A DNA stretch of 64,000 nt, from NCBI GenBank assembly GCA_006384855.1, contig VCJN01002430.1, positions 1-64,000 on the forward strand, given 5' to 3'. The position numbers and the translations under genes are program-made. Position 1 is the first letter of the stretch, and each line of letters opens with the position of its first letter. Below the pieces are notes generated by a model. That model ran no database searches. It was given only the letters and a program-made list of their open reading frames with translations, and was not told where the DNA came from. Of this stretch, positions 6,459-52,693 are shown piece after piece. This DNA is from Tetraselmis striata. Lineage: Eukaryota > Chlorophyta > Chlorodendrophyceae > Chlorodendrales > Chlorodendraceae.

Positions 6459-7068
6459 GACTTGTGGCGGCCTGGAACTCGACGGGAAGGCGAACGCGAG
6501 ACTCTGAGCGCCGGCGCGTCGTAAGAGTAGCGAATATGTAGCGCCGTACGATAGTCGGTGACAAGTTGGAAGGTGCTGGTGGAGGGTGCAGGGCCGAAAC
6601 ACTGTCGTCTGTGGATGAGGAAGGCGCTGGGTAGGGTACTGTGGTGACTGCGCAGGTGATGCGACTGTCTTAGTTCTTTACGAGCGGCAGGCACTTGTCT
6701 GGTCACTGCCCCCGGGCGGCGCCCAAACGTCGAGTGTCAGCGACTCCTCGAGGCCCAAGCAAGCGTCGCGAAACGGCGCGCGTGCTACGGGCAACACTCC
6801 GCCAACAGACTGCAATTTTTAACTTTTTGGTTATTACAGGGAGAGCGTCATGAAGAGAATGCACGGAAAGTACTGCACGGAACAGACTGCAACGTCTACG
6901 CGCGCGCCAGCATGCATGGCGTCGAAGTTGTACGGGTAGTAATCTCCTCAGTGCCGATGAAATAAGTCGATAATTTCAGTACATTTATAAGCAGTACATC
7001 CTTACAGGTACGCCCCACCGCTGAAAATGCTCTGGCGGTGAACTGGTTTCGACACGACTGTTGTCGCC
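6459..7068. other. Upstream region of the vWA gene
   Basis: No coding signal. Positions ~6818-6880 contain a segment (ACTTTTTGGTTA, then CAGGGAGAGCGTC, then AGAATGCACG) that is found again at ~26628-26680, so a dispersed repeat ends here. The TAATCCTTACAGGTA-type motif occurs near 6998-7012. Confidence 0.5.
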
Positions 7069-7464
7069 ATTTCAATCATGCATTCGAGTCTGTTTTGCCA
7101 AAAAAGGTGCGGAGGCTCTTTTACACGGAAAAGCGCCATTGTATGGCTAGGAAGGTTCAGCGAAAGGGAGGGAATGTCGGAGGAGGAGCCCGCAGGGCGG
7201 AGGCGGAAAACGGGAGGGCGCTGCCGAAGGCAGCGAGCTGGAAGATGGCAGACGAGCTGCTGGTGGCTGTCCTAAGTAGCTCCCCGGCCGGGAGCGCAGG
7301 GCTCGCGGGCGATGGGGCAGCCCGTACCAAAACCCGATGGTAACCGCTTGAAACCACGCATACGGAAGACCGTGCGGGTCGCACTAGGACAGTTTTAATC
7401 CGTTAGGAAACCCCATAAACACGTTTAGATCATTTCAATCATGCATTCGAGTCTGGTTTTGCCA
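7069..7464. repeat. 32-bp direct repeat flanking a 213-bp repeat copy
   Basis: The segment ATTTCAATCATGCATTCGAG, continuing to TTTTGCCA, occurs at 7069-7100 and again at 7432-7464. It brackets the first copy of the 213-bp repeat. This looks like a partial tandem duplication or nested insertion. Confidence 0.75.
7220..7432. repeat. 213-bp direct repeat, copy 1
   Basis: This copy starts GCTGCCGAAGGCAGCGAGCT, itself containing a small palindrome, and ends ACGTTTAGATCA. It is nearly identical to 9332-9544, differing by a few substitutions and two compensating 6-nt indels. It could be the terminal repeat of a small LTR-type element about 2.3 kb long; no target-site duplication is visible. Confidence 0.85.
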
Positions 7465-7499
7465 GTTTACACGCGGTTCGTTTACGACTGCGAGCGTAG

Positions 7500-9000
7500 G
7501 CAGTCGTCAGGCGTGTCGACCAGACGAAGGCGGAAGATGTCTTGAGTTGTAGAAGGGGTCTCGCGCCAAGAGGTGTTTCGGTCGAGGCGCAGGCGCATCA
7601 GACGCGGACGGGAGATGTTGACGCCGGCATGACATAGGCCGGACGTGTCGCAGAATTAAAGCGCCGTCTCCCGACGGCGCCCTATAGCATTGGCCGAGCG
7701 CCATGGTGGCGCGCGGCACGAGCCGGCGGAACTGCAAGCCAGTAGAAACATGGGTAGAAGTGGCCAAGTCGGCGACGAGCGCCCAGCAAAGCAGCGGCAC
7801 ATGCACCAATAGGACGAGTACAGCTGCGCGAACGAGCGCGCGAGCGCGCCGCGTACAGCCAGGTGCATTACTGGTGCGTTGTACCCGACGCGATGGTAAC
7901 TCTATACATGTACTGGCGATGCACGTTACGAGGGGTGGACACGCAACGCGCGATGACAGCGATGTATTGCTGCTGCCATCACCAGCGGTGGTTGTTTCGC
8001 CCCCTTGCGCGAGGAGCGGCGGGTGAAACGCACATCGCCGAGGGGCGCGGGAACGTGGGACCCTGTGTGGTCGTGTCGTACCGGCTCTTAGGTGTGCCGG
8101 GGTCGGTTGTCGGCGACGCCGCAGAAGACTCGCCGACTCGGTAAGCAGCTGTCGCCGTGGGTATTTCTTCGCGGAGAGCGGTGAGCCGGCCGCCGCTGCT
8201 GCACCAGCGGCGGCTGATGACCACCCCACAAAGCGCAGGCTTAGGATGATGCCACGAAACGCACGAGTCGCGTTAGGTGGCGGAGCTGTCCCCCGGCGGG
8301 CAGCTCGTGTTGTCACAGATGCGTTGCCGTGACGTTGAAAGCGGGTTGGCCGGCGTAGAGGCCCTTGTAGCCTATCTGGCACGTAACGATGCCAATGATG
8401 TCGGGGCGAGGGTGACGACGAGGCGGCCGCTGCTGCTGCGCCAGCGACGGTCGCCGAAGTCCCAAGCCCAGAGTTGGCCAGGGGTAGTTACGTACACCAC
8501 GAGACGCCAGGCACGCCAGGTGGTAGAGCGGTCCCCCGTCGGGCAGCTGCAGGTTGTCGTGGTCCTCGTGACGACGACGTTGCAGTATGTAGGAGGCGTC
8601 GGAGACGCATCGGCATGAGCGGCACAAACGCCTCCCACTGCAACCACAGCAAACGTTGCTGAAGCATGATTGGGGCGAGGGCAACGAGCCCTCTCAAAAC
8701 ACCGGCGTATGAGCGGCGCCACCCCCGTAACAGACCAATTACGCGAGTAGTTCCGGAAAACCACAGCATGTAACGACCGTTGATGCCACGACGCCCTGTT
8801 GCGAGGACACGCGGACCGGGTTGCAGTGTCTTGCGGGACAACAAGTGGTCGCCCCGACGACACGGACGTCCTCCTCCGTCCGCGCCGACTTGTTGCGGTG
8901 GGCGTAGTTGTCGTCGTTGACAACCGTGACGAGCCACGGCCATGGTGCCGAGCGCGTCCACCTCACCTAAACCTTAAGAGTTGACTACTGCGAGAGGGCG
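7500..9000 (-). pseudogene. Degenerate tandemly repeated coding-like region
   Basis: Two diverged units of roughly 260 bp can be aligned, at about 8155-8340 and 8400-8600, with fainter traces on either side. Read on the minus strand they give LQLPDGGPLYHLA and ELPAGGQLRHLT, repeated protein modules interrupted by frameshifts and stops. I do not recognise the family; the Leu spacing is faintly like a leucine-rich repeat. It lies between the two 213-bp direct repeats, so it may be cargo of that element. Confidence 0.35.
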
Positions 9001-27150: not shown

Positions 27151-29983
27151 GGCGGCGGGGCCCTTGGGCATGCGCAACGGGTATCTCCGCTGCTTGGTGG
27201 GCGAATACGCCCCGGCGTCCGGGCCCGCGGCAGTCCGCGCCATATGTGTCGGAGGTTGCCTCCATGTACTTCCAAGGTCGCATGCCCGGGTGGTTCAACC
27301 GGCTCTTCGCCTCTGCTAGGCTCGTGGCACCTGTCAAGAAGCTAGGCGAGGGGAGGGCCCCGGACGTGCGGCCTGTGGCAGTCGGGGAGGCGGAGCGGCG
27401 CGCAGCGGAGCGGGCAGTGGTGGACAACATGAAGGAGGCTTACGTGTCGGTGCTTGCTCCATCTCAGCTCGGCGTTGGCATTCCCGTGGGCGACTCTATG
27501 CTCATCCACGGCGTCCGGCTCATCGCCGAGAAGCTTGGCCCACGTGCCGTCATATCGTTCACACCGACCTTCGCAACGCTTACAACGAGGCATGGCGCCG
27601 CACCATCATCCAACGCCACATCGATTGCTCTCCACTACACCTTGTCATCCCTGCGCTCCTAGCCTCCCTCTCCACGGATTCGTATCTGGTCCTGGACGAC
27701 TGGTCCGCCCCTCTGCGGTCGGAGGACGGCGTGCAACATGGCGCACCGTTGGCCACGACTTCCTTTTGCGTCGCGATTCACCCCGAGGTGCAGCAGTGTG
27801 ACAGCACGTTGGAGGTCACTGACGGGGCGGCGCGCTTCAACGCCGACGATGGGTTTTTGGTGGGCCTTCCGGAGCACTTTTGGCCGGCTCTTCACGCCTT
27901 CCGCACGTCCATCAAGGCGTCCGTGGGGCTTGAGGTGCGCTTCGACAAGATGCAGGCGTACATCGCAGACATGGAGGTCGCGCGGCGTGAGGCTCCGGCC
28001 GACATCGAGTGGCCCGAGCTAGATGGCCATCACGGCATCGCGGTCCTCAACGTGCCGCTCGGATCGCCAAAGTATGTGCATGCGTACATGCACGACAAGG
28101 CGGAGGAGCTACGAGAGGATGTGGACGCTAGCTTGAGCAAGCTCCTATCTGCCAAGCCCAGCCGTTGGTCCACCCACGCCATGCATCACCACGCATGGGC
28201 CCTGCTCAAGCATTGCATGCAACACAAGGCGGGGTGTTGGCTCCGCAATTGTCTTCCGTCCGAGGTGGAGGCCTTTGCGGAGGCGGTGGATGTCACCGTC
28301 CTTGCGGCGGTCGAACGGGTGCTAGGGGTCTCTTTTGATCCCTCCACGTACGGCACCGACACGCACCAATCCGGTGGTCACCGATTTCCTGGCGGAGCGC
28401 TTTTGCACTACCCCGACCCCATGGCAGCGGAGGTGGCTACCTTGAGCGAGGATGCAGTGGCCAGGGCGCGCAGCAGGCTTCACCTCCCCACTCGGTTGAA
28501 GGGCGTTGACATCCGCCGCATGGCTACCGTTCGTGATGCCGCCTTTATCGGCTGCATGAATGCCATCCTCCCAAGGTTCACGACTAAGAACTCCGGCACC
28601 AACACCCCCACCCCTGGTTTCTTTGACCCACAGCTCGGGTCCGTACTTGGCCGAGGCAGCTTCAACGCAACTTCTTCCGCCCGCCGGTATGACCACTTCC
28701 TCAACAATGCTCATGGGTCGGACAGCTACGCCGCGGAGATGCGCGAGGCGCGGGGCCGCCTCCGAGCGGCTACTGTTGGCCATCTCGGCGACGCAGATGC
28801 GCGCGTGATGGAGCGGGAAGTGGAGGCTGCGTCGGGCTCGCAAAAGGAGCTGACGGCATTTCTAGACCAGGCCAACAACTCTCGGCTTCGAAATGAGGTG
28901 TAGTGCGCTCTCCCTGTCACATGTAGGGAACGGATCTTGTTCAACCAGCTCGACGCAGCGTCAGGCATGTGGACAGTGGCCATCTCCACCGCGCGGACGG
29001 TCATGACTCCGCATAAGCTGCGGGAGGTCGCTGCCGGGTACTTCTTTCTGCCTAGCCCGTGCTTGGCCCCGGTGGTTGGGAGCCATATCATTCTGCCCTC
29101 GACGGAGCACAACCCCGTCACTGTTGACCTATACGGCGACGCGCTCATGAACCTCCCGGCGCCTGGAGACGCTCACTGGCGTGTACAACACGACGCTATC
29201 GCAGATGCCTTCCGCGATCACTGTGTTCACGACCTAGGTATCGCCGTACGGCGGGAGGTGGAAGACTTGTTCCAGCATGCAGTGCCTCTCGGCAACACCG
29301 TACCCATGGATGAACTCAAGGACCTAGTGCCGGCTGCAGAGCTCTCCCTTCCGGCATTCAACGTCGTGACCGGGAGCTACGATCCCCGGAGCTTGAAGTC
29401 CACGCTGGAGTTCAAGACTATGCGGTACGGGGTCAAGTACACTGCAGTGCCCCGGGCCACGGCTTTGGATCGGTTTGAGCGCTCCCTGTTGGGCGACATA
29501 CAACGGGGGTTGGCATCGCATGATGCGGCGTGGCAAATCACGGAGCCCGGACAGAAGGGTCCTCTTCGAGACGTCCTGGATATGTCGGAGTACACGGGCA
29601 TGGTCTTCGGCACAGTGGGTGAGGTGAGCAAGGGGGTGCGCCGCACAGAGCGCGGTGTCGCATGCTTGGCTACGGATCGGGGTGCCCTCTCATCGCGGGG
29701 CACTCGGTGCACCACCCGGGCTCACCTGGAGGCCTTGCTCGCAAGAGATTTCCTCGGGGTCCCGAGCTTGGTGGCCGCTCGAGAGCGCGCTCGCTGCCTC
29801 ATCAGACGGCGCAGATTCGTTTGCCATCCCGTTGCTGAAGCTGCACAGCACGTCCGAGGATCACCCACACACACACGTGCACGCGTGGCCCGGGCTCTGA
29901 ACCGTGTGCGCATCACTCATATTCATCCCGCCTCATGCGGGATGCGGGCCGCTTTTAGGCGGCTTGCTGTGTTGATTTTCTAG
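27150..29983 (+). pseudogene. Reverse transcriptase of a non-LTR-like retroelement, frameshifted and stopped
   Basis: Retroelement polymerase on the plus strand. The first part (to about 27550) contains WFNRLFASARLVAPVKK and VRPVAVGEAERRA, typical fingers/palm start of RTs, then LGVGIPVGDSMLIHGVR. A one-base frameshift at about 27550-27565 is needed to enter motif A, HTDLRNAYNEAWRR. It continues to motif B, EDGVQHGAPLATTSFC, and the active site FNADDGFLVG, so both catalytic aspartates are kept. The frame runs to a TAG at 28901-28903. Directly beyond it, in the same frame, comes RERILFNQLDAASGMWTVAI, continuing to 29983; the last ~80 codons look out of frame again. No endonuclease or RNase H domain is recognised, and I cannot name the clade. 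With one frameshift and one stop in an otherwise well kept frame, the copy looks young but dead. Confidence 0.85.
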
Positions 29984-33436: not shown

Positions 33437-36400
33437 ATGCACCTTCCGCACCCAGCAGGCGCCCCCTTGCGCGGCCTGCACTCCTGCCGCCGCAGCTCCC
33501 ACAGCGGCCGCGGCTGGCCGTGGCCGTCTGCGTCACCAGCGGGAGGCGCGTGCCAGGGCGGCGGCGTGCTGGGCGCGGTGGGCGCGCTGCCGGAGCGCCT
33601 CACGCCAAGCTGGGGCCGTGCCGGTGGAGCGCGCTCTCTGCCATCGCCGCCGCTGCACATCGCACACGCGGCGTTGCAAAGTCGGCGGAAGGTCACGCAG
33701 AAGAGCGAGGAGCGGCAGAGGTCGGTGCGGCCTGCGTCTACACATTCAGGCTGCATGAGGACACCTGCCAGTATTGCATGGGAGCAGGGAGGGGGGGTGT
33801 TACGCAACTCCCCCCTCCCTGACTGGATCGTCCCTTGTTACATGGATCACTGACAGGCAGGATCCCGAGCTGCGGAGATACTGGGAGGAGGTGCTGGAGC
33901 ACGTAGACAGGCAAGCCCCGGCCCTGTGCCGGGCCCGCCTTGGGCTGCTGGCAGCGTGCGCTCATGACCCTATCAGAGGCGCTATACGTATAGATAGGAG
34001 GCCCTGGCAGCGTGGGATGGGAACTTAGATGGCAGCGGCGGGACGACCAGCCGCGTCCTCGCAACAGGCCATGTGGTGGCAGTACTCAGTAGCCCAATGC
34101 ACCGGCTCGGTCGGTCAAGATGCTACCATACTGCACTAAAGCTCCCGCTGGCCTCTGGACACTTGGGCTGCGGAGGCTGGGGAGGCCTATCGTACCATTC
34201 CAGCTCTGTACTGTTCCCTATAGTCCGATTGAGCCCCCCTAATATGAATTAAATACAAGTTTCGTTTATATTATTGATGCTCCAGTGATATTTTGCTGCA
34301 CTCTGTCCGAAACCCTCTGCCCATCCCGTATGTTTATGTGCAGTTGTGGCCTGTACAGCCCATGTGAAATATCATTTATAAATACGTATGTATATATATA
34401 TATATGTATAGTTGTGGCCTGTAACAGCCCATGTGAAATATCATTCATAATACGGATATATATATATATACATATACATATGTGTGTGTGTGTATATATA
34501 CACATATTCATATTTATATATACATGTATATGTATGTATGTATGTATATACCTTCAAACTAAGACTTGCTGTTCCAACGCTGCCGGCCTGCAGAAACTAC
34601 GCGCAGAAGTACGTTGCCGAGCTGGACATGGACTACCAATTTGGCTGCAAGCCAGGCGTGACTGCGGGCTCCATGCCCTGCTACGAGTACTACCTGGACG
34701 TGCGTGCCCTCGGCCTGGCGCCAGCCCTGAGCATGCGCGTGCCTCTGTGGTCGCCCCAGCCTCGACCTGACTGCTGCCCCGTAGGCCCTTCCCGGGCTTT
34801 TTACTGGTCTGTTTTATATGTAAAAAAACACGCAACATGGCCCCGCTGACTGCCGCACGCAGGTGAAGAGCAAGCACCCGCGGGCGGTCCATCTCGTCCA
34901 GATTGGCAAGTTCTACGAGGCCATCGGCGTAGACGCAATCCTGCTGATGAACTTCTGCAGCCTGAACGCAATGGGGAATAAGCCGCGCGCCGGCGCTCCC
35001 CTCAGCAACATAACGCAGCTCGTGAACGACCTCATATTCAACCGCGCCGGGATCACGCTGGATGTGGTAGGAGCCGAGCGCCGCCTTGGCCATGCACCGC
35101 TCAACCTCTTGCTGTTACATCAGACAACAAAATGCCCGTCTGGCCCCGCTGTGCAGGTCATATCCGAGGAGATTAGCGTCGACATGGACGGCTCCGGGAG
35201 CAGCTACGGCTTCAAGGGAAACGTAAGTCTAATTCTCATCGTGTCGTCGGACGCCTATCCTTACCCCCCTCTCGTGTTGGCAGAGATCGCGACATTATTT
35301 GTCTTCGGGCTTTGACGTTGTGAACTTAGATACACGCGCAGTCGTTCAGGTCCTCGCGTCCGTCGGTGGCTCTGCGGTACGGTGTTGTCGCTGTGACATG
35401 TCCTTCATCGACCTGTTCGTATTGCTGCGCGCTATCGTCGCTCTGGCGATTTTCGACGTTGTTGTGCTCTCTCATCCGCCGCGGTCTCTTTTCTAAACCC
35501 TGGGGCGAGTGCGTGGTGTGAAGCATGTTGATGCCTGGTCGTTGGGGTTATTTCTTTGTGTCGTTACTGCAGCGCGAGGGGGGCAAGACTCGCCTTTGAC
35601 GCCGCAACACATGCTGGGCACGGCAGCACGAGCGACCGTCACTGATCAAGCCGCTCCATGTGTGCAGAAAAACCTGAAGCACCGCGCCATTGTAGGGGTA
35701 TGCAACCAGGCCAGCCCCAACTTCGACCGAGGCCTTATGGCACGCGACCCCTCTGGCGAGAATCTCGCAGAGGCCCGGCCGATGATGGCGCTGGCGGCCA
35801 CTTCATCTGGCTTCCAGATATATGAGGTCGACATCGATATGCGGACCATCCGGGTACGCCCCCGCTCATTCTTGCTGCTGCTGCTCAGCGAAGAAGTGCC
35901 AGCGCTACCACTCGGCCGTCGCGGAATATGCCTGCATCGCCGCGCCACCGGGTTGCAGTGATATCATGGTGTGGCTAGCCCTGTAGGAACTGCCATGCGA
36001 CGAACGTACCGAGCGGGATGGTGGCCGTAACAGGAAAGTAAAGAACCCCCGGACCACGGCCGGCGGTGTTCTCCTGTAGAAATATGTGACAACCTTGCTA
36101 TTACTGGCGCGGGCGACGCACCGATTACAGTATAGCAGGAGCGCACAGAACCGCGCTGAGAGCAGGTCGCGCCCGGAGACGCGCGTCGGGAGCCGCACCG
36201 TGCCACTCCGTCGAGCTGCGTCCTCGCCACTACGTTAAGTTTGCCGACGCCCGCACGCAACAGCAGCGACGAGTACCGCCGCTAGGGTTTGCGGCCCATA
36301 TCACCCGCGCCGCGCTAACTGCTGCACGCGCGCGCGTCGCGCGTGCCGATGTATTGTTAGCGATAACATATACATGACCACTACAAAAATATTCCTCACT

Positions 36401-39600: not shown

Positions 39601-42600
39601 GCTGGCTCTTGTCGGCCAAGTCCTATTGCGCATGCTTGACTGTGATTTGGAGCGGTAGGAATCAGGTGATGTTTGTCTAGACACTAAACCTCGTAAGCAA
39701 ACTGCTGGTAATACGTGGAATCGGCGTAAGACCTCATCCGCGCTTGCATTGAATTTGCGCTGCCTTGTTGGTGTCGAGTGTTTTTTGTCAAGGATTGACC
39801 TTGCTACTTCTATCATGTGCTGGGGGAAGTATACCATCGGCTTTTACAGACAAAGCAGTGAGTATATCGCATGCACAGGCGGCTGCCAAGGTGGTCATCG
39901 ACGAGATGTGCCTGGCCATCGAGTCCATCAATGCCATCGCCGATGCGTCGAAGCTGGAGCCAAAGCACAGGGGATTCCAGGTTTGTGGCGCTGCCGATGC
40001 GCACTCAAGCATCGACATGCTCAATGACACGTTTGGCTTGCTTGTGCAGCTGGGCTGTGATGAAAGGTATCCGAAAGTGCTGAGCTCACCTCGATACCGC
40101 TTTCCGCAGATAACGGCCGACCCCGGCTTCCAAATGCTGTCAAAGTCGACGCTGAAGAAGGAGTTGCTGAAGGAGCGGAAGGAAGGCTCCGACCAGCGGG
40201 TGCAGCGCAGCAAGTTCCTCCATCCTCAAATCTCCAGAGGCAGCGAGAACGGAAAGGTGAGTCCAGCCCAGCAAGGGCGCATCAAGGCCTCGTCGAACAG
40301 AATGCACCGCAAGTATGTGGCTGGCGGGATCGCTCATGTGATGCGTCGCTAGTTCCGGCTGCTACAGCTAAACGGCTTGTCCCGGCATCAATGTGTTCAT
40401 TGACACCGTCACAGCTAGCAATGCTCCGTAACTAGCGATCTAGAGCCAGGTGTTCAGATTAGATTTTGCGCTGCTACCTACTGCTTCGGAGCCATTTACC
40501 AAGTTGAGATGACCCATCACTGCTGCTGCTCTGGTGCTTTGAGTCCATTGCTCCGAAACCAACCGTTGATTTGTTGTGGCTGCGAGGCGTGCATACTCGA
40601 GCACACTCACTCTGGGGAACTCCCGGCCTTTTATTTACCTCCATTGCTTCGAGACCGCGGCGATACATAGCGCCGTGCGCATGTATTCTCCAACACCCAA
40701 TGCTGACACATAAAATATGTGACGTCAGTCGGCATTAGCGCAGCCATGTTCCGGCGGTTCCCTTGATGTCTATATTAGCATTCGCACTTAGTTAATGCTA
40801 GTTAATGCTTGCATTGCGTTGCCGGCTCATTTGCAGTCGTATGCAGCTTATATCATGCTTCACTCGCGATATGTACACCCTCACCCGGCTGGCGCACAGA
40901 TGAAGACGAGCTCCGTGATAACGACGGAGCTAGACAAGGCGGTGGATGACTACCTAAGCGCGTGTGGCGCCGCCCAGAGGAAGGTTGTGAAGATTCTCAA
41001 GGTGCGAGCCAGCAGTGCGCCGCCCTCAAGCTTTCCGAAAAGACCTTGAACATAAGCTTTCCGCACGTATTCCTTGACAAATTTCGCATCGCCTGTAAAT
41101 TGATAGTTCAAATTCTTTTCAAGGAAAAAGATTTTGGTGAATGATGCGCAAGAAGTCGCCACCACATTACAGTTGATGTGTCTGTATGTGCTCTGCTGTG
41201 CTTCTGGCCGGTTGGCGGGGCAGACTCTGGCGAACGAGCTTCAGGGCGCCGTGCTCCTGCAGCTCATTGCGGCGTCGTGGTTCGCAGTGGGCTGCCAAGC
41301 GATGATCAGCCACGTGGAGGAGGGCCGACGCAGGAGGTGCGTCTTGCTGCTGTCTGGCTTTGCTCCTGCAGGCCCTAGACAATCCCCCCCCCCCCCCCCC
41401 CCACTTTTGGTCCTATACTGGCTTGCTTGCACTTTTCAGCGACGCCACTGCCGTTGCGCACTTTCATACTACGACAACGTGGACCCGTCGAGGCTCGTTG
41501 CATAATATATCCGATGTCGTATTCTGCGCCCAGGTTTTTAGTGCCGCGCGCTGGCTTTCGTCGTACGCGCCCTCTTACCGGTAATCGTGTGCGACGGGTA
41601 CGGCGACATCCACGACCGTTAACTATACAGCACCAGTAGGTACGGATAATCAGTAATTGGTCGATGCATTACGGCAATATCGTCCCGGCGTGTCCTGGGT
41701 TTACCCGGTTGATGCATTAGCCCTTTGGGGTTCGACTGAGGCAATGGTCTAAGGGCTATGCCAGACCTACGACCGCAGTTGGCGCACGAGGTCAAGTGCT
41801 GGGGCGGCTTCGGCCGATGTCACGGGGCGGACTTTACTTTAGGTACGGATTAGTAGGAATGCATCAATCCATCACGTCCGGATGTATAGTCGAAATATAC
41901 ATGGGGTAAACAAAAGTCGGAGTACGAGTATCTGTATCTCACTAGCAATTCAGCATATGCCTTCCTGATTGGTAGACGTAACGTATATTTAGCAAAGCAT
42001 ATATTTAGCTAGACATATTATATTGAGCAACATGAATTGCTGGGAGGTTAGAGGAACAAGCGAGGACAAAGTACCCCTTGACACTTTGTTATTGTGCAAT
42101 ATACTTATTGCAAAAGAACATGAAGTTTCACTTATCGGAACACTGTAGCTGCGACATGACGCCATGTTGTGCATGTAATGCGCACAGATGGACGCTGCCG
42201 ACGCTCGACCTCAGCGAGGACATTGCGATGGAGCGCACGCAGCAGCGGCTGGGGCCAACGCCAGGCCGCAGGCCTCTGGAGCTGCGGCACGCCTGGCCCT
42301 ACTGGATGAACCGCCTCGAGTGCGCCCCTCTCCCCTCCACCGGCATCCCCTCACCATGTACCACCAACACTGAACCAACGTATGACATTCAACGACTCCC
42401 TGTTCAATTGCGGTAAAAACGGCGTATTCAATATTGTTTCAACGGTGGAGGACATTTTACGCGTGCACTGTCGATTTCATTTCTGATATATATATCGATA
42501 GTCTACTACGTGATTTCATCGCCTCTGATAATAAAAACATCGCAGGGTACCTGTAGTATTGCGTGCGAGTACAATAATGATGCGACTACGCGCGAGCTGA

Positions 42601-45600
42601 TGCGCTGCTGCTGTTGCATTCTATTACTCCGTTCCATAAAACACGGCGTTCGAGTTTATTGTTTGACTTTTCTCCGCCTCAGGGCCAGGTGTCGTGCAAT
42701 TGGGGTTCGCCCTTCTACACCGATACTTAGGGTTGAGCGCATGGGTCTCAGGGTTAATCAAACCCTGTCAGCTTCTTGGATGGTCAGAATATATGCATCC
42801 TAGGTGAATTGTGCCGTATTGGCAGTCGTTTATTTTCGGGCTCCGCTTGCTGACTGCTTGCCGTCAAAGCCCTCGCCGCCCCTGTAACCCCTTGCCCCCT
42901 CTCACGCACGCCCTGTGCCTCGGCAGCTCCACAACGGTGCTGAACTCCGTCAGCTGCAACTCGATGCTGCTGCTCACTGGGCCCAACATGGCCGGCAAAA
43001 GCACCGTCCTGCGCACCGTGGCCGCCACCTCGCTACTGGGCGCGGCGGGCCTGATGGCGCCCTGCGAGTCGGGCCGCATCCCCTACCTCGACGCCTTCAT
43101 CCTGCGCACCTTCTCGCAGGACAGGTGGGTGCCACTGCGCGGCTGCTGCGGCGGCAGACTGCGTCTTGTGAACTGCGTGTCATTAAGCGTCATTTTGTTA
43201 ACAGAATTCGTGTGTTTGCGAATTAGGTCACGGGTTTTGCAGTCACGCACTGGGAATTAAATGTGGGAATTTAAGCTATCCGTTGCTGAACTCGATTGAT
43301 ACGCAGTACAAATCATGGAAAGTTCCCTCCAAACCTCTGAATGAAATCCCGGACATCGATGTGCTATGTATATATATATATATCGTATATATACATGTGT
43401 ATAACGTATATCTAGCTAAGTGTCGCTTGAATGATATGAATAGCAACAAGCTCGAATGTTTATTTATCATCGCGAGTTTGGAGTTATTTCCTGCCTTCTT
43501 GTGTGGATTCGTGGCGCGCCTACCCATCGGCATGATGTACTCGCTGAGCCGGCCCTGGTCCCCGCTGCTGTGATCACCGTTGGCAGCCCCGGCGACGCCA
43601 TGAGCAGTTACGGCGTGGAGTGCCAAGAGATGGCGGCCGTGCAGGTCAGCGCCGCGGCCTTCGCTGAAAGCGCTGCCGATGCCGCCGATCACATCAGCCC
43701 TTCCGAGAGAAGATTCCGGCAAGAAGGCAGGGGACGGTCGAGTGCTGACTCCGCCCCACGGGTGTGCTTGCGCTGGCACTGCCCAGGATGTTGTCACGCA
43801 GCACACCCTGCTGCTGGTGGACGAGCTGGGGAAAGGCACGGAGGTGGCGTCCGGGACCGCGGTCGCAGGTGACCCAAACCAGCCGGCCGAGTTATATCAC
43901 AGTACTCGAACAGAACCGCCACCGCCAGCCCCCGCGGCGCAGCGTTTCGACTGCGACCCTCGTGTAGCCCGTCCTGCAGTCGAGGCCGCAGTTCGTTATT
44001 ACACAACTGCGGGACTGAGAATGTGACGATACTCGACACTAGTCGTCATGAGTCGGGCAGCGGAGGCAGCGCCGGATGCGGATGTGCCACGTGTTCGCTG
44101 TGCTTTCGGAGGAGCGGGGCCAGCAATATATCCCTAGAGTGCGGTTGCTTACGATTGTCGGGAGTGCGACTGAAAAATCCGCCTCGACGTTTCAGCTCCG
44201 AAAAGCAGAGCACGATTGTGTGCCGGGACGATCCATCCGAGCCGCAGGGCTTCAGTACTCTGGGAGGGCACGTACACGCGCCTGAATGAATAACTTCCAA
44301 TTTTCGCGGCCGCTTTGCCTGGCGCCGCTGATCTCGGGAATTAACACTGCTAGCGTGCTATGAAGGGCGGGCTGTCCGGGGCGGTTGCAGCACTGGCCTC
44401 AAACCCGCCGCGCGACACAGTGCATGCGTCCATGCATGCGTGGTCTTGACACTATTTATTGCATAGTCTCTGCTGATTGGCATGTCACGAAGTTCGAGAG
44501 CGGAAGGGGGGGGGGGACAAGTATATGAGGTCGCGTTGGAACAAAACGAGGCGCCGGATGCATCATGCATCTGCGGTTCCATGTGCACGTATCGTTCGTT
44601 CGACTGTCACGTGTCTCTGGGTGCGAACCGACCCGCGAACCGCCGCAATGTTCCGCTGCCGTTCCGGCCGGGAGGGTGGCGGGCTGGGCCGCATTCCACA
44701 GCGGCTGACCGCCCCCGGCTGAGCCGCCCCGCTTGTCCCCCGCAGCGGCGCTCCTGGAGGACCTGCACCAGGCGGGCTGCCGCGGTATCTTCGCCACGCA
44801 CCTGCACGGCCTGCTCACGCTTGAGGGCCTGGACGCCCCGTCGCTGCAGCGCATGCAGATGGAGACGAGGCCGATGGGTACCCCCTCCCCCCATCCCCCC
44901 TCCTTTGCCTCACTCGCCGAAACCATCAAGGATCCGCATCAAGGGGCAGCAGCTAAGCATAAATATACTCCGTGTCTCAAATAAGGTCTTAATTGAGATA
45001 TACCGATGGTATTTTGATTGAGGCCGATTTCGTTGGCATTTTAGTTGACCATAGTACACGTCTATAGATTGCTATCCACAAATCTTTACTGAGTTTCTTG
45101 GCATTTTAATTTCTTGGGGTTGGCCTTGTACATCTACTGCTAAATTTCAACAGCCATCAATGGATTGAATTTTAGAGCAAAGAAGAAATGGTTGGGCATA
45201 AATTTGGTGAATTTTCGTTTACGAGAAGAAACTACTCATTCGAAAAGGTAAATAGCCATTGTCGGGATCATCGTCCATGCTGGTCCGCCTGATGCAGCAA
45301 GGGATCTGGGGCAGTTACCATCCAATGCACCGCCCGAATCGAGCCTCGATTGATTCCAGCGTCGGCGAGGGGCCAACTGCATTGACCCATTGGCAGCCTC
45401 CTTGGAGAGGTGCGCCAGTTCTCGGGGACCCCGTCCGAGCTTGCCGATCCATCAATGTTTCATCGTGCCGATTAATCTGGCCAGTCGCCGGTCCAACAAT
45501 AATGAGTTTTTTTCCTAAAAGAAGTAGTCAGAGATTCCGTAATGTATTCCTTCTGCATTATGATATATTCCCGGATAGATATTGTTGTTCTCTCGCCGGG

Positions 45601-48600
45601 GGCTTCAAGAGCAATTGGCGCGTGGCTACGGTATTCGGATACTTCGGCTCATCCGAGCAAGTGCCGCTTTTTATGCAGCAGCGTGTCCATGTGCCTGACA
45701 TTCTTGGGCTGGTGTATGTAACCGCACCCTCGCCGCCCCCCGTCCGCCGGTGACGCACCAGCGGAGGCCGAGATGGACGAGGAGCGGCGCGCGCTGGCGC
45801 AGCTGACGGGGCGGCCGCTGTCGGTGCCGACGTGGCGGATGGTGGAGGGCTGGAGCACCGAGAGCCTCGCGCTGAGCGTGGCGCTGGACCAGGGCATGCG
45901 CCCCGGGACCGTGCGGCGCGCCGCCGAGCTGTGAGCCTTCCCTGCCCCCCCCCCCCCCCCCCCACACACACACACAAAACGCCCCAACCAGGCTTGAACG
46001 TAAAAAGTCCATTTGGAGCCGACTGAACTTCACCGAAACATTTGTTATTTGGGTTCGTGGGTCGAGACATTATGAATTGTTTTGCAGCAACGAGTCGTAA
46101 AATCCGTTTAATATTCGTGTTGTATTCTGAATAATTTCAAGATACATATTTATTCCTGTCTTCGCGAGAGGGTCAAAAACGAAAATGGACCGCGACCCCA
46201 CAGCGCGGTTCACGGCACGTCATCACGTCGATTGAAGTCGAGTCCCGCTCAGGAATGTGCGTCCGTAGTATACCGCCATTTCACACTCTTGCCGGGGGTG
46301 AAGTGCTCTCATGTGGCACACCTTGGTGGACTCAGGGCCATTTGTGTCGGCTTTTTCAGGTTCCCGGGTCACAACATATTTAGGCGAAATGGCTCACAGT
46401 ACGCCTTTCTGCCGAACGCGAGTTGAGTTGTCGAACTTCAGTTGCGTTCCTAAGTTAAGGGGGGAACCTCGCTTGCTTTATGTGATGATTAAGTTACCCC
46501 CAAAAGTTTCGTATATTCCGAGGGTCTCTTCGAATGACTCGACTCAACTTGCATTTGAGTTGGCTTAATCGCATTGAAAAACTCGACCCAACAGTACTCA
46601 CGCACAATCCCGCCCCCGCCCGCCCCCGCCGGCATCCTCAATTCCGGCCCAGCCCCATGTCCATCCCGGTGCCCTCCACCCAGAAACCACAAATCGGCCC
46701 CGATCACTCCGACAAGTGGAAGCTGTCTTTACCTCCCGGCACCAATTCAGAGATCCGAGAACCGACTCTGCTCATGCATGCCGTCGCAACAAGTAGCCTG
46801 TCGGTTTCGGAATGGCCGCGTAATCCCCTCCCCCCCCCCCCCCCCCCCTAACTCTGCGAGAGAGAGAGAGAGAGAGAGAGAAACCCAAGTTGAAGCTGTC
46901 GGTGATTTCAGGGCATGTTCGCATCCCAATTGGGTGGGCAGCTAAGCTATCCTCGAGGGAGACAAATCCTGTGTCTGTCCCGCGGGTTAGCGCCGACCGG
47001 CTCCGCACCACATGACTATCCAATGTCCGCTAGCTGGGGCCCGGGGCCCCGTGGCAGCTCCGACACGGCGCGGCTGGCATTGCCGGCTCCGGGTGGCGAA
47101 GCGCCCTTGGGTCTCTGTTAGGCCGCTCCCTTTCTATTCGTTCCCCTCTCTATCCATCGTTGACCTCATTGGCCGAGTCGGCTGGGGCGGCGGCGGCCTG
47201 TAGCAGCCGGCGGCCATCCTGGGGGTCGCTTTGGGCCCCCACACGCACTCCTGGGTATCAGTCTTTGCATCCCTAACACAATCTTCGCATCATGCCTTTT
47301 TTTTGGGGGGGGGGGGGGGGGGGGGGGGGAGGGTGTGTTGGTGCATTTAGGGCGGTAGCTTTTAACCTAAGCACAACCCTAAAAGCACATTCTACTGTCA
47401 CGGTCAAGTGTTTATCGGTTCGCTCTGCCGCTCATCCACACATCCGCAAAGAGTCCCCTCTAGCGCTCTCCACATCACAGCCGCCTTCCTCCCGTCGCCC
47501 TCTGCCTGCGCACCCGCGTGCGCCCCCTAACGCGATTGCCCCTCTGACCGCCGCGCGCGCCCCGCCGGCAGTCAAAAAGCCATCCAGTCCTCCTTCACGG
47601 CGGCCGTGGAGGACAGCGGACTCGGTGGCGATGGCGGGGCGGCGAGCGCGCAGGAGCCAACGGAGCAGCGCCAACAAAGCCGTGCCTCAGCGGCGGCGGC
47701 GGCCAGGGTAGCCGGCCCCGTGAGCCGGCCCTCGACGGCGGGCGGGGCGTCGCCGCAGCGCAGCGCGTCGGAGCTGGCCGCCGCGCTGGAGGGCTGGGTG
47801 AGGGAGGAGGCGGCGGGGCAGCGGGTGCCCGCCACCGCCCCGGAGTGCCTCTCCCGCTTCCTGGGCGGGGAGTCGGTGGCGAGCGTCGCCGCCAACCGCG
47901 CCCGGCCCATCAAGGTGCGCGCGTGAACGTGGTTGGCATTGCATCGCGCATCGACACGGAGGAGCGGCGCTTCAATAGCACGCGGTGTACTCGCCCGGGA
48001 CTGTCATCTGCGTTGGCGGATCCAACGAACAACGAAATGTTTTTTTGCGACATCGAGCCGGGACACCCGTGAAGTGTGTCGTGGTGGATGCTGATGGGTC
48101 ACCCTATAGTAAATACACTTTATCTCCATGTGCGGCGGGGTCGAAACCACGTGCAGCGCAATAGCAAAAACCCAAAAGAATCTGCAGCAGTGGTATAGCA
48201 GGTGAGGAGTATATAGGTCGATGTATGTATGTATATATGTATGTATGTATGCATGTATTTATTTGTGTGTACATGTTTGTATATATGTGTGAATAAACTT
48301 ATCCATGTGTACAAAGTCAACTTGCACTCGCGCGGCCTTTGCCTCATACCTGCAATAAGGCTCGATTGCCCCCCCCCCCCCCCCCACACACACACCCACC
48401 CCACCCCTCTTCCTCCCTTTTCGGTAGTGGTATAGCAGGTGAGGAGCATATAGGTCGATGTATGTATGTATGTATGTATGTATGTATGTATGTATTTGTG
48501 TATACATGTTTGTATATATGTATGAACAAAGTTATCCATGTGTACAAAGTCAACGCCGTTGAGCGTGCACTCGCGCGGCCTTTGCCTCCTACCTACAATA

Positions 48601-51600
48601 AGGCTCGATTTCACCCCCGCCCTCTTCCCCCCTGCACAGCGCCGTGCCGGTCCTTCTTTGTCCGGACCATTGACACTATTAGCTCTAATAGCTCCTGTGC
48701 AATTTTTTTCAGTTGTTTCCTTGATCATTTCGGCCAGTCATCACTTTGCCGGCTCGCCTAGCTGTGAGCACCAAACCCGCTCAAACGTTGTCGCGTTGTA
48801 TACGGCATGCCCCAGTGGCATGCCTCCACCGATGACGTGAGGGATCGAATGAGTTGGGGGTTGACCCCCCCCCCCCTCCCCCCCCCCGGGTGTGCAGGAG
48901 ACCACGGTTGTGAGCTACATTCTTGGGCTGCTGAGCCAGAGCGTGGCCGAGGGGCAGGCAGGCGCGGCGCCCGGCGTCGACTGGGAGCGGCTGGCGTCTG
49001 AGGCGGGGCTACACCCGGGGCGCGAGGCCGTGATCGAGGCGGCCGTGCGCGACGGCGCCAACGCCTCCCTCAACGACGCGGTCTGCGTGGCCAGGGCGCG
49101 CGACCCCGGCATCACGCCCTCCCACGCCAAGGTGATTCGCGACGCCCGCGTCCACCCCGCTGTGCCCACCCTGCTGCCCGCCGCTCTGTGAGGCATTGAC
49201 TGATGGAGCGCGGCGACCAACTTGGGCTGCCCCCACAGTTTCTCGCGTCAGGGTCAGATCCCGGTCAAACGATCAAGAATACTGGTCCATTTGACATCAA
49301 GTTCCGGTTGGCATCCTCCGATCCAATACGACATATGATTGTTTCGCCTTATGTCGAGTGAGGAAGATCGATGCATACAACGAGTGGTTCACCTCATGGT
49401 GAAGATTAGAATCGTTCGTTTGTGATCCTCCCGCGAGACGTAACTGTGAGCAGCTAGGCGTTGTCACGTGCGTGATACTCGTGTGAGGCGTCTAAGTAGC
49501 CCTTTTGGCGGGCCTTATTTCCTGCTCGGAATTGATGGGGTGCCGATACGTGCAAGCTTCCGGAGCTCCGGGATGTTTTTTCCTGCCCCCGGCGGGACAG
49601 GACTGGCAACAGTGAGACCCTTATCGCAGCGTCTCTACGACGGCCGTTTACGCACCGATCCAGTCACTGACAGCCCTGGGTATAGGCGACACTCCACTAT
49701 AGTCATCGCCAGTCTCAGCCTGGTGTGCCTGCTGCACAAGTGATTGTCCCGGCCTTGGATCGATACTCAGTAGGCGGGTCCGTCCTTACCTGCGCATCAG
49801 CATGCTGAGAGTGATCGCTGTGCCCCGCGCAGCTGGTGGCGCTGAAGCTGATATACTGTCCGCCGGGGAGCCGGCCCGCTGAACCGGCATTGGTGGCGGC
49901 AGGCGGCTCATCGCACCCCGGCGAGCGGGACCCCCTTGCCGCAGCAGCGGAAGAGAGATTGGGTGCGCTCATGATTGACGCCTCCGGGGACGAAAAGCGG
50001 GGGGCAGGGGGGGGGGGGGGGGGGCATTGGCTTGATGCTTGGCTGGCATCTATGTGGAGGCCGCGCCATCGATATGACTCTGGGCGCCGCTGCGTTGATT
50101 GGGTGTTTACTCAGGTAGCAATGAATTCGTGCAATGAGACCGAATCACAAAGTTGCAATGGTCGATGATGTGCGGCTCTGATGACGACTATTCCGAAAGA
50201 GGAGCTCCGAAACCACCCTGGCAACTGTCCTAATCAACAACGCCGCTCTCCAAATTAACTATTCAATTATTCCGGAGTGGCTCACGGCCTTTATCCACCG
50301 AGGTCCGCAACGGTGAATCGAGAACAAGCAGGCTCACCTAGTGCTCCGAAATCACTTGTCCAGGTGACAATGGAGACATTGAGCAATTGATGAAACGCCA
50401 ACATCTGTTCAAATCAAAACTGCCCCGAATATTAGCCGAAGCCGATCACTGTCGAAAACCCAGCGGGTCCGGGCAGGCAGCGCCATATGCAGGCATGAGG
50501 TGTTTTTTGCCCCCGGGACAGGACAGGCACGGACCGGTGAAACCTTTGCAGTGTCTCTACGACGGCCTTTCACCAACAAATGGTTGAGGCAGCAATCCGG
50601 TTACGGAAAGCCCTGGACAAACCATAGCCAAAGGCGAAAACTGCAGCCGCATCGGCGTATCCATAAAAAGCTGTAGAGCGACGGTCCGTTTCACATCAAC
50701 CAGACGATGCCACACATGTGCAGTCGTTTGGTCAGCAACGTGCACCAAAAAAATGCAACTGCGATCCTTTTGCGTCCTGTCGTCGAGCCAACTTTGGCGG
50801 CGCATATCTTCTCAATCTCAAACTCCTGGCTGCCGGGGTCATCCTCAGAACCCGTGACAATTGACACAATTGGCCGCCGAGCGTGTCCGGCGTACAGCGT
50901 ACCGTGATATCCCGTTAGCTTCCCGTGTCGATCCAACAAGTCATGGGGGGAGGGGGGGGGGGGGGGGGAATCCTGATGGGGATGTCTCCCAAGCTACGAC
51001 ACATATACAATCCTGCTAAACTACTATGTTTTGGTGTCGCCTACTGAAGCACCGTGGCATATATAATCCTGATTGCCTGACAAGGTAAGGAGAAGTCGCA
51101 GAGCTCACATTCATTATCGTGATCCATGTCAGAGTGCAGGTCTTGGATGAATCATGGGGGGTGGTGTTGGTGTAGTAGATGTCGTCCGGGCGGTAGCCGT
51201 CGTACTTCACACAGGTGAGGTGATACTTGATGGGTCATGCTCACGCCCGCTCTTGCGGTTGCCGCCCCCGAAGTTCCTCCCCTCCCAGACGACCTCGACC
51301 ACGAGCAGCAGGAGTGGTACATGGAGCGCGAGCCAAGCAGCGCCCCGCCCAGCGAGCCGACGGCCGCGCCTCCAGCTTCCCCGGCGGGCACCGCGGTGCC
51401 GCAGTGGGTGCGGAGCGCGCCGGGCGAGAGCGCCACCTCGACGGAGGACCGGCGGGCGGGAGCCCGGCAGGACGACGCTGAGCCGTGCGACGAAGCGGCA
51501 GGGGCGGGCGTGGCGGGGGCCGAGCCGCGTGGCATCGCCGACGCGGGGCGCGCGCTGAAGGAGGTCTGCTCGCACCTGCGCGAGGCGGGCGCGCTGCCGG

Positions 51601-52693
51601 CGCAGCCGACGCCGGTGGTGACGCTGGCGCGCGGGAGGCAGCCGCCGCCGCGGCACGCCATGACGTCCTGCGTGTACGTCTGCGCCTGGGACAGCGGCTA
51701 CTTCTACTGCGGCGAGACGGACGACATCAAGGCCCGCCCCCCCCCCCCCCCCTCCCCCCCTCCCCCTAAACCACGCAGCCCTCAAAACCGAAGAAAGCCC
51801 TCTGAGTCTCCCCCCCCCCCCCCCCCCCCGGGCACGCACATCCACGCGCAGACGCGAATCAAGGCGCACAGCACCTCAGACCGCCACAACGTGACACGTG
51901 AGCCCCCCCCCCCCCCCCCCCCCCACCCCCTACGTCATCCCATCGTTGTAGCACCAAAGGCATTCAAAGCCATTGCGGCTGCATTCGCGGGTCGGGCGCG
52001 CTGCTTATTCTTGCTTTGCCGGGGCTGTTCACGGCTCGGATTACAACGGCGTTACGGTGGCGTGGCGCCAAGGTTTATCCCGCCGCCGTCCATATGGCCT
52101 CTGTTGGGACAGTTGCCCGTGGGGTGTGGTCCTCGGCCCGGTCCAGGCCGGTATACATACAAGCTCTACAATATCGGGTGATGACATCCAAGTTCGATCG
52201 GCCCCTTTTTCGAGCTTTTTTTGAGATCTCACCATGGTTTCGGAGCGACGCAGGGTGTGCCGCAGAATCGAACGCCGCGGGGCCAAAAAGTAATGAAAAA
52301 TTTCGCACCTTCGCGTCGGAGTATTCGTGCTGTGGTCGTTATGTATTCTGACTCATTTCTCCGTTTTGATAGTTTTTCCCTCTTCGCGGTGGGGGGTCGA
52401 AAACGTTATTTATCCGCAGACCGTTTGCGTTTCTACGGTATGGCGATGGCGTTGTTGGGGTGACGACCGGAAAGGGTGGGGGGGGGTGCTTTGGAGGCGC
52501 TGAGAGCATGTGTGCACGTATGGTCCGGCGTGGCGGGGCAGGCGGGCGCGCAATGGAGGTGGCGTACGTGCCGCTGGCCAGCAAGAGCAGCGCGCGCGAG
52601 GTTGAGGCGGCGCTGCAGCGCAAGCTGCGCCACGAGGGCTTCCCCATGCTGTCGACCGCCGACGCGGCGCACCGCAACTTCGGGCGCGCGTGA
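33437..52693 (+). CDS. MSH1: Plant-type organellar MutS homologue MSH1 with GIY-YIG domain (28 proposed exons, ~1,484 aa)
   Basis: MSH1 recognises mismatches or recombination intermediates in organelle DNA, and its GIY-YIG nuclease domain is thought to cut there, suppressing mutation and illegitimate recombination. Proposed exons: 33437-33720, 33857-33910, 34594-34699, 34863-35066, 35157-35222, 35668-35853, 37092-37268, 37621-37719, 38123-38248, 38384-38623, 38838-38897, 39289-39528, 39879-39980, 40110-40256, 40900-41001, 41224-41336, 42188-42319, 42927-43124, 43587-43644, 43787-43868, 44746-44877, 45762-45930, 47572-47914, 48898-49131, 49833-49962, 51289-51731, 51852-51890, 52505-52693; phases agree. 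The N-terminus is Arg/Ser-rich and transit-like. MutS domain I has GKFYEAIG (F165, E167). The P-loop is GPNMAGKST (831-839), Walker B is LLLVDELGKGTE (D910, E911), and the switch is FATHLHGLL. GIY-YIG has CVYVCAW and YFYCGETDD (1390-1403), R1411, and HRNFG at the end. Exons 23-26 add a region absent from land-plant MSH1 as I know it. Exons 1-2, 25, and the start of 28 are least certain. Confidence 0.88.
34380..34555. repeat. TA/TG microsatellite with duplicated flank in MSH1 intron 2
   Basis: TA and TG dinucleotide runs surround two copies of GTTGTGGCCTGTA(A)CAGCCCATGTG plus AAATATCATT, at about 34342-34378 and 34411-34449, a local tandem duplication. Confidence 0.8.
36620..36680. repeat. (GTC)n/(GGC)n trinucleotide repeat in MSH1 intron 6
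   Basis: About twelve GTC units are followed by several GGC units. It lies inside the 1.2-kb intron, which otherwise shows no coding signal. Confidence 0.9.
38350..38383 (+). other. T12-G18 tract at the 3' splice site of MSH1 intron 9
   Basis: A run of T is followed directly by a run of G ending in CAG at 38383, immediately before exon 10. It is the clearest case of a G tract abutting an acceptor in this window. Confidence 0.9.
38655..38690. repeat. Interstitial TTTAGGG motif in MSH1 intron 10
   Basis: CAGGGTTTAGGGTTTAAAGCC, just after exon 10, contains two adjacent telomere-like units. A matching motif lies at 57528-57542. Confidence 0.6.
48190..48611. repeat. Tandem duplication (about 180 bp) with GTAT microsatellite in MSH1 intron 23
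   Basis: Copies at 48190-48367 and 48427-48611 both run from GTGGTATAGCAGGTGAGGAG through a GTAT microsatellite to CAATAAGGCTCGATT. Copy 2 has a 16-nt extra segment around GTTGAGCGTGCAC. A C tract separates them. Confidence 0.85.
49550..50650. repeat. Diverged repeat pair around MSH1 exon 25
   Basis: About 49560-49690 and about 50480-50630 share GTTTTTTxCCCCCGG, GGGACAGGAC, GTCTCTACGACGGCC and AAGCCCTGG/CAGCCCTGG in order. They are diverged copies of an unnamed repeat. The second copy lies in the intron after exon 25. Confidence 0.55.

Follow-up and report, generated by a model that had tools for sequence, protein, structure and literature searches.

A 64,000-nucleotide stretch of the green alga Tetraselmis striata (contig VCJN01002430.1, C1959:1-64000, within a genome of 224 Mb in 2903 contigs), here called the window, carries a plant-type MSH1 gene whose product probably contains an extra module between the ATPase and the nuclease. 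Judged from sequence comparison, this module is probably homologous to HTH_40 (PF14493), a helix-turn-helix (HTH) domain found at the C-termini of RecQ/WRN helicases, and it is flanked by two linkers. Plant MSH1, also known as CHM, is a MutS homologue with a C-terminal GIY-YIG nuclease domain that functions in the surveillance of organelle genomes. The evidence consists of a continuous gene model kept in a second genomic copy, a family match below the accepted cut-off, a resemblance to the HTH_40 domain in a RecQ-type helicase of the alga itself, and a lack of change in the HTH helices between the two copies.

Gene model and the second copy

Thirteen exons on the forward strand (41224-52693) splice by frame joining into one stop-terminated frame of 743 amino acids, with 11 of the 12 introns bounded by GT-AG and one by GC-AG (donor after 51731). 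The joined protein matches MutS_V at residues 97-236 (Pfam E 3.4e-31, with the Walker A motif GPNMAGKST) and, in the same frame, GIY-YIG (Pfam E 1.9e-5, 25.3 bits against a cut-off of 22.6). A MutS_I match lies upstream at 34848-35090 (Pfam E 3.6e-7, 30.8 bits against a cut-off of 20.6), and this stretch is assumed to belong to the same gene and transcript as the 13-exon frame. By its domain content (MutS I ... MutS V - GIY-YIG) the gene is identified as a nuclear MSH1 of the plant type. An NCBIfam search of the protein returned MutS and ATPase families only, with no family matched on the insert. The features are as follows.

34848..35090, + strand: MutS domain I with the GKFYE motif; exon borders approximate (Pfam MutS_I)
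41224..45930, + strand: seven exons encoding the stretch before MutS V and the whole matched MutS V (joined frame, Pfam MutS_V); exons 41224-41336, 42188-42319, 42927-43124, 43587-43644, 43787-43868, 44746-44877 and 45762-45930
47572..47914, + strand: exon with variable linker 1 (88 amino acids), then, from 47837, the first HTH_40-like helices, APECLSRFLGGESVASVAANRARPIK (AG/GT borders, frame, second copy)
48898..49131, + strand: exon with ETTVVSYILGLL, presumed to be the recognition helix, and the greater part of the remaining HTH_40-like domain (frame; Pfam HTH_40 below cut-off)
49833..49962, + strand: exon with the helix LVALKLIY, which closes the HTH_40-like domain at 49856, followed by the beginning of linker 2 (frame)
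51289..51731, + strand: exon with variable linker 2, the pre-nuclease stretch (ADAGRALKEVCSHL...PPP) and the start of GIY-YIG (SCVYV...YCGETDDIK) (frame; GC donor after)
51852..52693, + strand: final two exons (51852-51897 and 52542-52693) with the remaining GIY-YIG, ending HRNFGRA and stop (frame, Pfam GIY-YIG)

The original prediction, made from the window's sequence, had placed the peptides FLGGESVASVAANRARPIK, ETTVVSYILGLLSQSVAEG, VDWERLASEAGLHP and ITPSHAK followed by LVALKLIY in exons between the MutS ATPase and the nuclease of an MSH1 protein. Translation of exons 47572-49962 yields these peptides at that place, and the location inside MSH1 is borne out by the 743-residue frame, its Pfam domains and the second copy. 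Each of the three insert exons is preceded by AG and followed by GT, and together they carry a single open frame from MutS domain V on into the C-terminal GIY-YIG. The distance from the end of the ATPase to the nuclease is 360 amino acids.

The second copy lies on contig C1663, which is colinear over about 34 kb of the compared stretch. Identity is 87-97% from block to block, and 91-97% for the large blocks that surround the gene. It is taken as the other haplotype, although it may have arisen by recent duplication. All 13 exons of this copy retain the frame and the splice dinucleotides, and exon 47572-47914 differs by a single 3-nt in-frame indel. The three insert exons appear real, because one open frame runs from MutS V to GIY-YIG and because the second copy preserves both this frame and the splice dinucleotides.

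Several features of the introns were seen along the way. The GC donor after 51731, inside the GIY-YIG domain, is followed by a long run of C and is common to both copies. A direct repeat of 97 nt (93% identity, with ATGT runs) lies at 48225-48321 and 48458-48554, within the intron that separates the two HTH exons. On C1663, the intron leading from the HTH exons to the GIY-YIG exons contains a minisatellite (L022, 4999-6765; unit about 139 bp, 12.6 copies), whose units are matched in the window over a single stretch of about 150 bp, 50204-50355.

Differences between the copies are distributed unevenly along the protein. Counted as synonymous changes, amino-acid-changing changes and codons compared (a codon with two changes, in linker 2, being counted as two changing), they are 4, 0 and 295 for the MutS V part; 3, 4 and 88 for linker 1; 0, 0 and 45 for the HTH helices; 3, 4 and 67 for the remainder of the HTH_40-like domain; 2, 15 and 118 for variable linker 2; 0, 0 and 41 for the pre-nuclease stretch; and 3, 0 and 89 for GIY-YIG. 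The four introns measured diverge by 3.5, 3.8, 4.3 and 4.6%. At the rate of the two adjacent introns, about 6 changes would be expected in the 45 HTH codons, with a Poisson probability of about 0.003 for none. HTH helices free of constraint are therefore unlikely, since about 6 changes are expected and none is observed, while the rest of the module is weakly constrained.

Resemblance of the insert to HTH_40

HTH_40 was named as the family of the insert in the original prediction, ahead of the searches, and no other Pfam family is matched by the insert (best HTH_40 score 14.4 bits, E 0.049). A genome-wide search with the family found two matches over the cut-off. The first, on contig C2869 (HTH_40 E 3e-8), stands in line with other open stretches of its strand, which match DEAD (E 7e-17), Helicase_C (4e-7) and HRDC (1e-11); all four matches are over cut-off, and the stretches are read, unspliced, as one RecQ-type helicase gene. 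The second (G000 C1826:56223-56366, locus L002, minus strand) scores 37.6 bits.

The strongest similarity of the insert is to the C2869 domain. A local alignment of the two scores 83 (z 10.2), whereas the highest score among 5000 shuffles is 66. It runs along the HTH helices, pairing LSRFLGGESVASVAA-NRARPIKETTVVSYIL with LRRFTSGESVEDIAVKGRMKPIQVSTVLGYLS, and continues through WERLASEAGL / WGKLAAECDL. The similarity is read as homology because only two domains had been preselected by the family search. A wider comparison used 35 HTH_40 sequences, namely C2869, a human WRN segment, and 33 bacterial domains (from a set of 39 loci, after omission of 5 below the family cut-off and of L047, near a contig end). 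Four of the 35 exceed all 500 shuffles: C2869 (z 9.7) and the bacterial L057 (7.0), L058 (6.5) and L056 (5.9). By these alignments the insert appears significantly similar to accepted members of the family, C2869 and 3 of the 33 bacterial domains.

Profile methods point the same way when the algal domains are included. A bacterial HTH_40 model with C2869 added scores the two MSH1 copies at 5.2 and 4.6 bits, above all 2000 shuffles. Profile-profile alignment (hhalign) gives a probability of 37% (E 0.00035) when both algal HTH_40 domains are part of the profile, and 18% when C2869 serves as its master sequence. For each of three profiles, none of 100 column shuffles reaches the score. Composition as an explanation of the resemblance was rejected on the shuffle tests, both pairwise and profile-profile.

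Several results weigh against the assignment. The Pfam HTH_40 scores for four cuts or copies of the insert are 12.3, 13.7, 14.4 and 13.8 bits (E 0.049-0.21), where the curated cut-off is 27, and HTH_40 is not listed at all for the whole 743-residue protein at Pfam E up to 1. BLASTP of the insert with the C2869 domain, with and without composition statistics, finds no match. The model of 33 bacterial domains gives the two copies 2.3 and 2.1 bits, with 1 of 2000 shuffles higher, and hhalign on the bacterial sequences alone gives 4.6% and aligns the bacterial HTH with the WERLASEAGLHP part instead of the proposed HTH. Thirty of the 33 bacterial sequences, and the human WRN segment, fail to exceed all 500 shuffles; the score of that segment with the insert is reached by 22 of 500. 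A sequence search of the PDB with the insert matched no related structure, and C2869 is absent from the matches of a whole-genome search with the insert (E up to 10). A frame raised by the latter search scores 75 with the insert, compared with 83 for C2869.

Pairwise comparison is a blunt instrument in this family, because WRN and C2869, both HTH_40 domains, themselves align with a score reached by 195 of 1000 shuffles. The margin of C2869 over other frames seems real but not large. Weaker matches of the insert were set aside: three in the PDB (E 0.64-0.82) to proteins taken as unrelated, and whole-genome matches on C2426 and C155 (E 5.47) taken as chance. A PHROGs search of the insert gave none at E up to 0.1.

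Taken as a whole, the earlier reading is partly supported. A relation to the RecQ-type HTH_40 domain is supported by the sole Pfam match and by the similarity to C2869, and its direct similarity to the human WRN segment is not significant. The insert is called HTH_40-like, and not a Pfam member, because its score is below the curated cut-off.

Possible function, origin and alternatives

Plant MSH1 stabilizes organelle genomes and has been proposed to introduce breaks at mismatches that are then repaired via recombination; the purified protein binds nucleotides and acts on recombination intermediates, with no preferential binding of mismatched DNA (available portion of PMC12292046, including its section 7). 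A mechanism can be proposed in which the MutS part and its ATP-driven clamp would locate a mismatch or a recombination intermediate, while the HTH_40-like module, on its two long variable linkers, would take hold of duplex or branched DNA close by as a second contact. That second contact would position the GIY-YIG nuclease to cut, and recombination might then mend the break, in line with the proposal for plant MSH1. The variable linkers and the placement of a RecQ-type domain between them would fit such a contact. As to origin, the MSH1 gene most likely captured a RecQ-type HTH_40 domain. The full version of this proposal, a green-algal MSH1 that captured the RecQ C-terminal HTH_40 to become a three-part enzyme recognizing branched organelle DNA in RecQ-like fashion and cutting it, is put forward tentatively, as less likely than not.

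A RecQ-type accessory domain between motor and nuclease, if truly present, would bear on how plant MSH1 couples recognition to cutting and would point to branched DNA as a target. The algal protein would be a ready-made natural variant for testing the link between recognition and cutting, and the MSH1 linker would be a site where domains can insert.

The module might instead be widespread among green-algal MSH1 proteins and overlooked as lying below search cut-offs, which is a serious possibility, if a little short of an even chance. The algal copy is itself below the Pfam cut-off, so a survey of green plants that used HMMER and CDD (PMC10487979, as far as its available text goes) would probably miss similar modules, and the coding lengths given there span 1040 to 1584 amino acids. 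Against this, Arabidopsis MSH1 has about 90 amino acids between the end of the ATPase and the nuclease, compared with 360 here.

The main rival to a DNA-gripping function is that the module, although homologous to HTH_40, is an element for protein docking or dimerization, for example with a partner in recombination or replication. HTH folds frequently mediate protein contacts. The helix-turn-helix end of MutS domain V has a role in dimer contacts. A helix-turn-helix domain at the end of MutS domain V is described in the available text of PMC12292046. The occurrence of HTH_40 in helicases that work on DNA, and the basic residues (RARPIK) directly before the presumed recognition helix, speak for a DNA grip, suggestively and without proof. 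The distribution of changes between the copies, with 4 in the 67 codons of the later module and none in the HTH helices, cannot separate the two functions. On balance, docking is considered unlikely.

The resemblance could also be accidental, the insert being an alanine-rich linker with some helices. The sub-threshold Pfam score, the failure of BLASTP to match C2869, the one shuffle in 2000 that scores higher on the bacterial model and the frame from elsewhere in the genome that scores 75 against 83 for C2869 would all fit with chance. However, none of 5000 shuffles reaches the score with the HTH_40 domain of the alga's RecQ, a domain that the family search had singled out independently, and the 45 unchanged HTH codons contrast with the 15 amino-acid-changing differences in the 118 codons of linker 2. 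Chance is regarded as improbable, and homology to HTH_40 is the preferred reading. Finally, it is very improbable that the insert exons form a gene of their own or are spliced out of the mature mRNA: the gene model rests on genomic sequence and the introns flanking the insert exons are 1.6 kb and 1.3 kb long, but the frame from MutS V to GIY-YIG is continuous, with matching phases, in both copies.

Relatives, surroundings and known systems

MSH1 has been reported from giant viruses and gammaproteobacteria (available portion of PMC12292046), and none turned up in the scans of viral, bacterial and archaeal sequences made here. Viral contigs scanned with the MutS V segment gave 14 loci from 20 candidate stretches; at E up to 0.01 these match only the MutS V side of the algal protein, with no MSH1 among them, and several end soon after the match. 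No locus came from scans of viral contigs with the GIY-YIG alignment (34 candidate stretches), with the insert (55), with a MutS V alignment (36) or with the C-terminus (76). Bacterial and archaeal genomes, in a single scan, yielded 7 loci from 154 candidate stretches, and none of the 7 matches MutS at E up to 0.01. The match at L041 was rejected as probably chance, because a long open frame at 6808-8130, read in a different frame, spans the place of the match.

Upstream of MSH1, open stretches at 27345-28855 resemble a reverse-transcriptase remnant (DGVQHGAPLATTSF); this is unconfirmed, and three pieces of it have no Pfam match at E up to 1. Elsewhere the genome has 63 matches to PF00504 (light-harvesting proteins of the chlorophyll a-b type) and an intact rbcL frame. 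One of the light-harvesting proteins has 71 matches among solved structures at E up to 1e-100; the best 60 of the 71 include chlorophyll a-b binding proteins, LHCII and siphonaxanthin LHCII chains. The top two are long LHCI chains that we take to be euglenid. On this evidence of light-harvesting proteins and rbcL, the genome is taken as that of an alga of the green lineage.

An MSH1 with an HTH_40-like module is not described in the literature searched, which comprised main texts without supplements, in part. An MSH1 with GIY-YIG is reported from red algae of the Stylonematophyceae (PMC10250338), and neither 'HTH' nor 'helix-turn-helix' occurs in the available main text of that paper or of the green-plant survey (PMC10487979). 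The mentions of a helix-turn-helix in the available part of PMC12292046 refer to the end of MutS domain V.

The algal protein shares MutS I, MutS V and a C-terminal GIY-YIG with plant MSH1/CHM. Compared with short segments of Arabidopsis MSH1, its MutS V is 49% identical over 52 columns and its GIY-YIG part is 35% identical with 29 invariant columns, SCVYV, GxTDD and HRNFG being common to both; in the stretch preceding SCVYV the likeness is by eye only. The two differ in the region between ATPase and nuclease, where the longer algal segment houses the HTH_40-like module. A second natural fusion of MutS with a nuclease is mtMutS/MutS7 of octocorals and giant viruses, in which the nuclease is of another type than GIY-YIG (HNH); no HTH_40-like module is known to us in that group, at which no search was aimed. 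A review on the RecQ helicases of humans lists HTH_40 by name among their domains (PMC7947261, in its available part). The algal insert shares with the HTH_40 domains of RecQ/WRN C-termini the order of the segments GESV, TV, W-x-x-LA-x-E-x-x-L and a closing helix, and differs in falling below the Pfam cut-off and in being housed in a MutS protein. Relative to the HTH_40 domain of C2869, which lies in one open frame, the insert is split by two phase-0 introns, and its loop after the third helix is about 8 residues longer.

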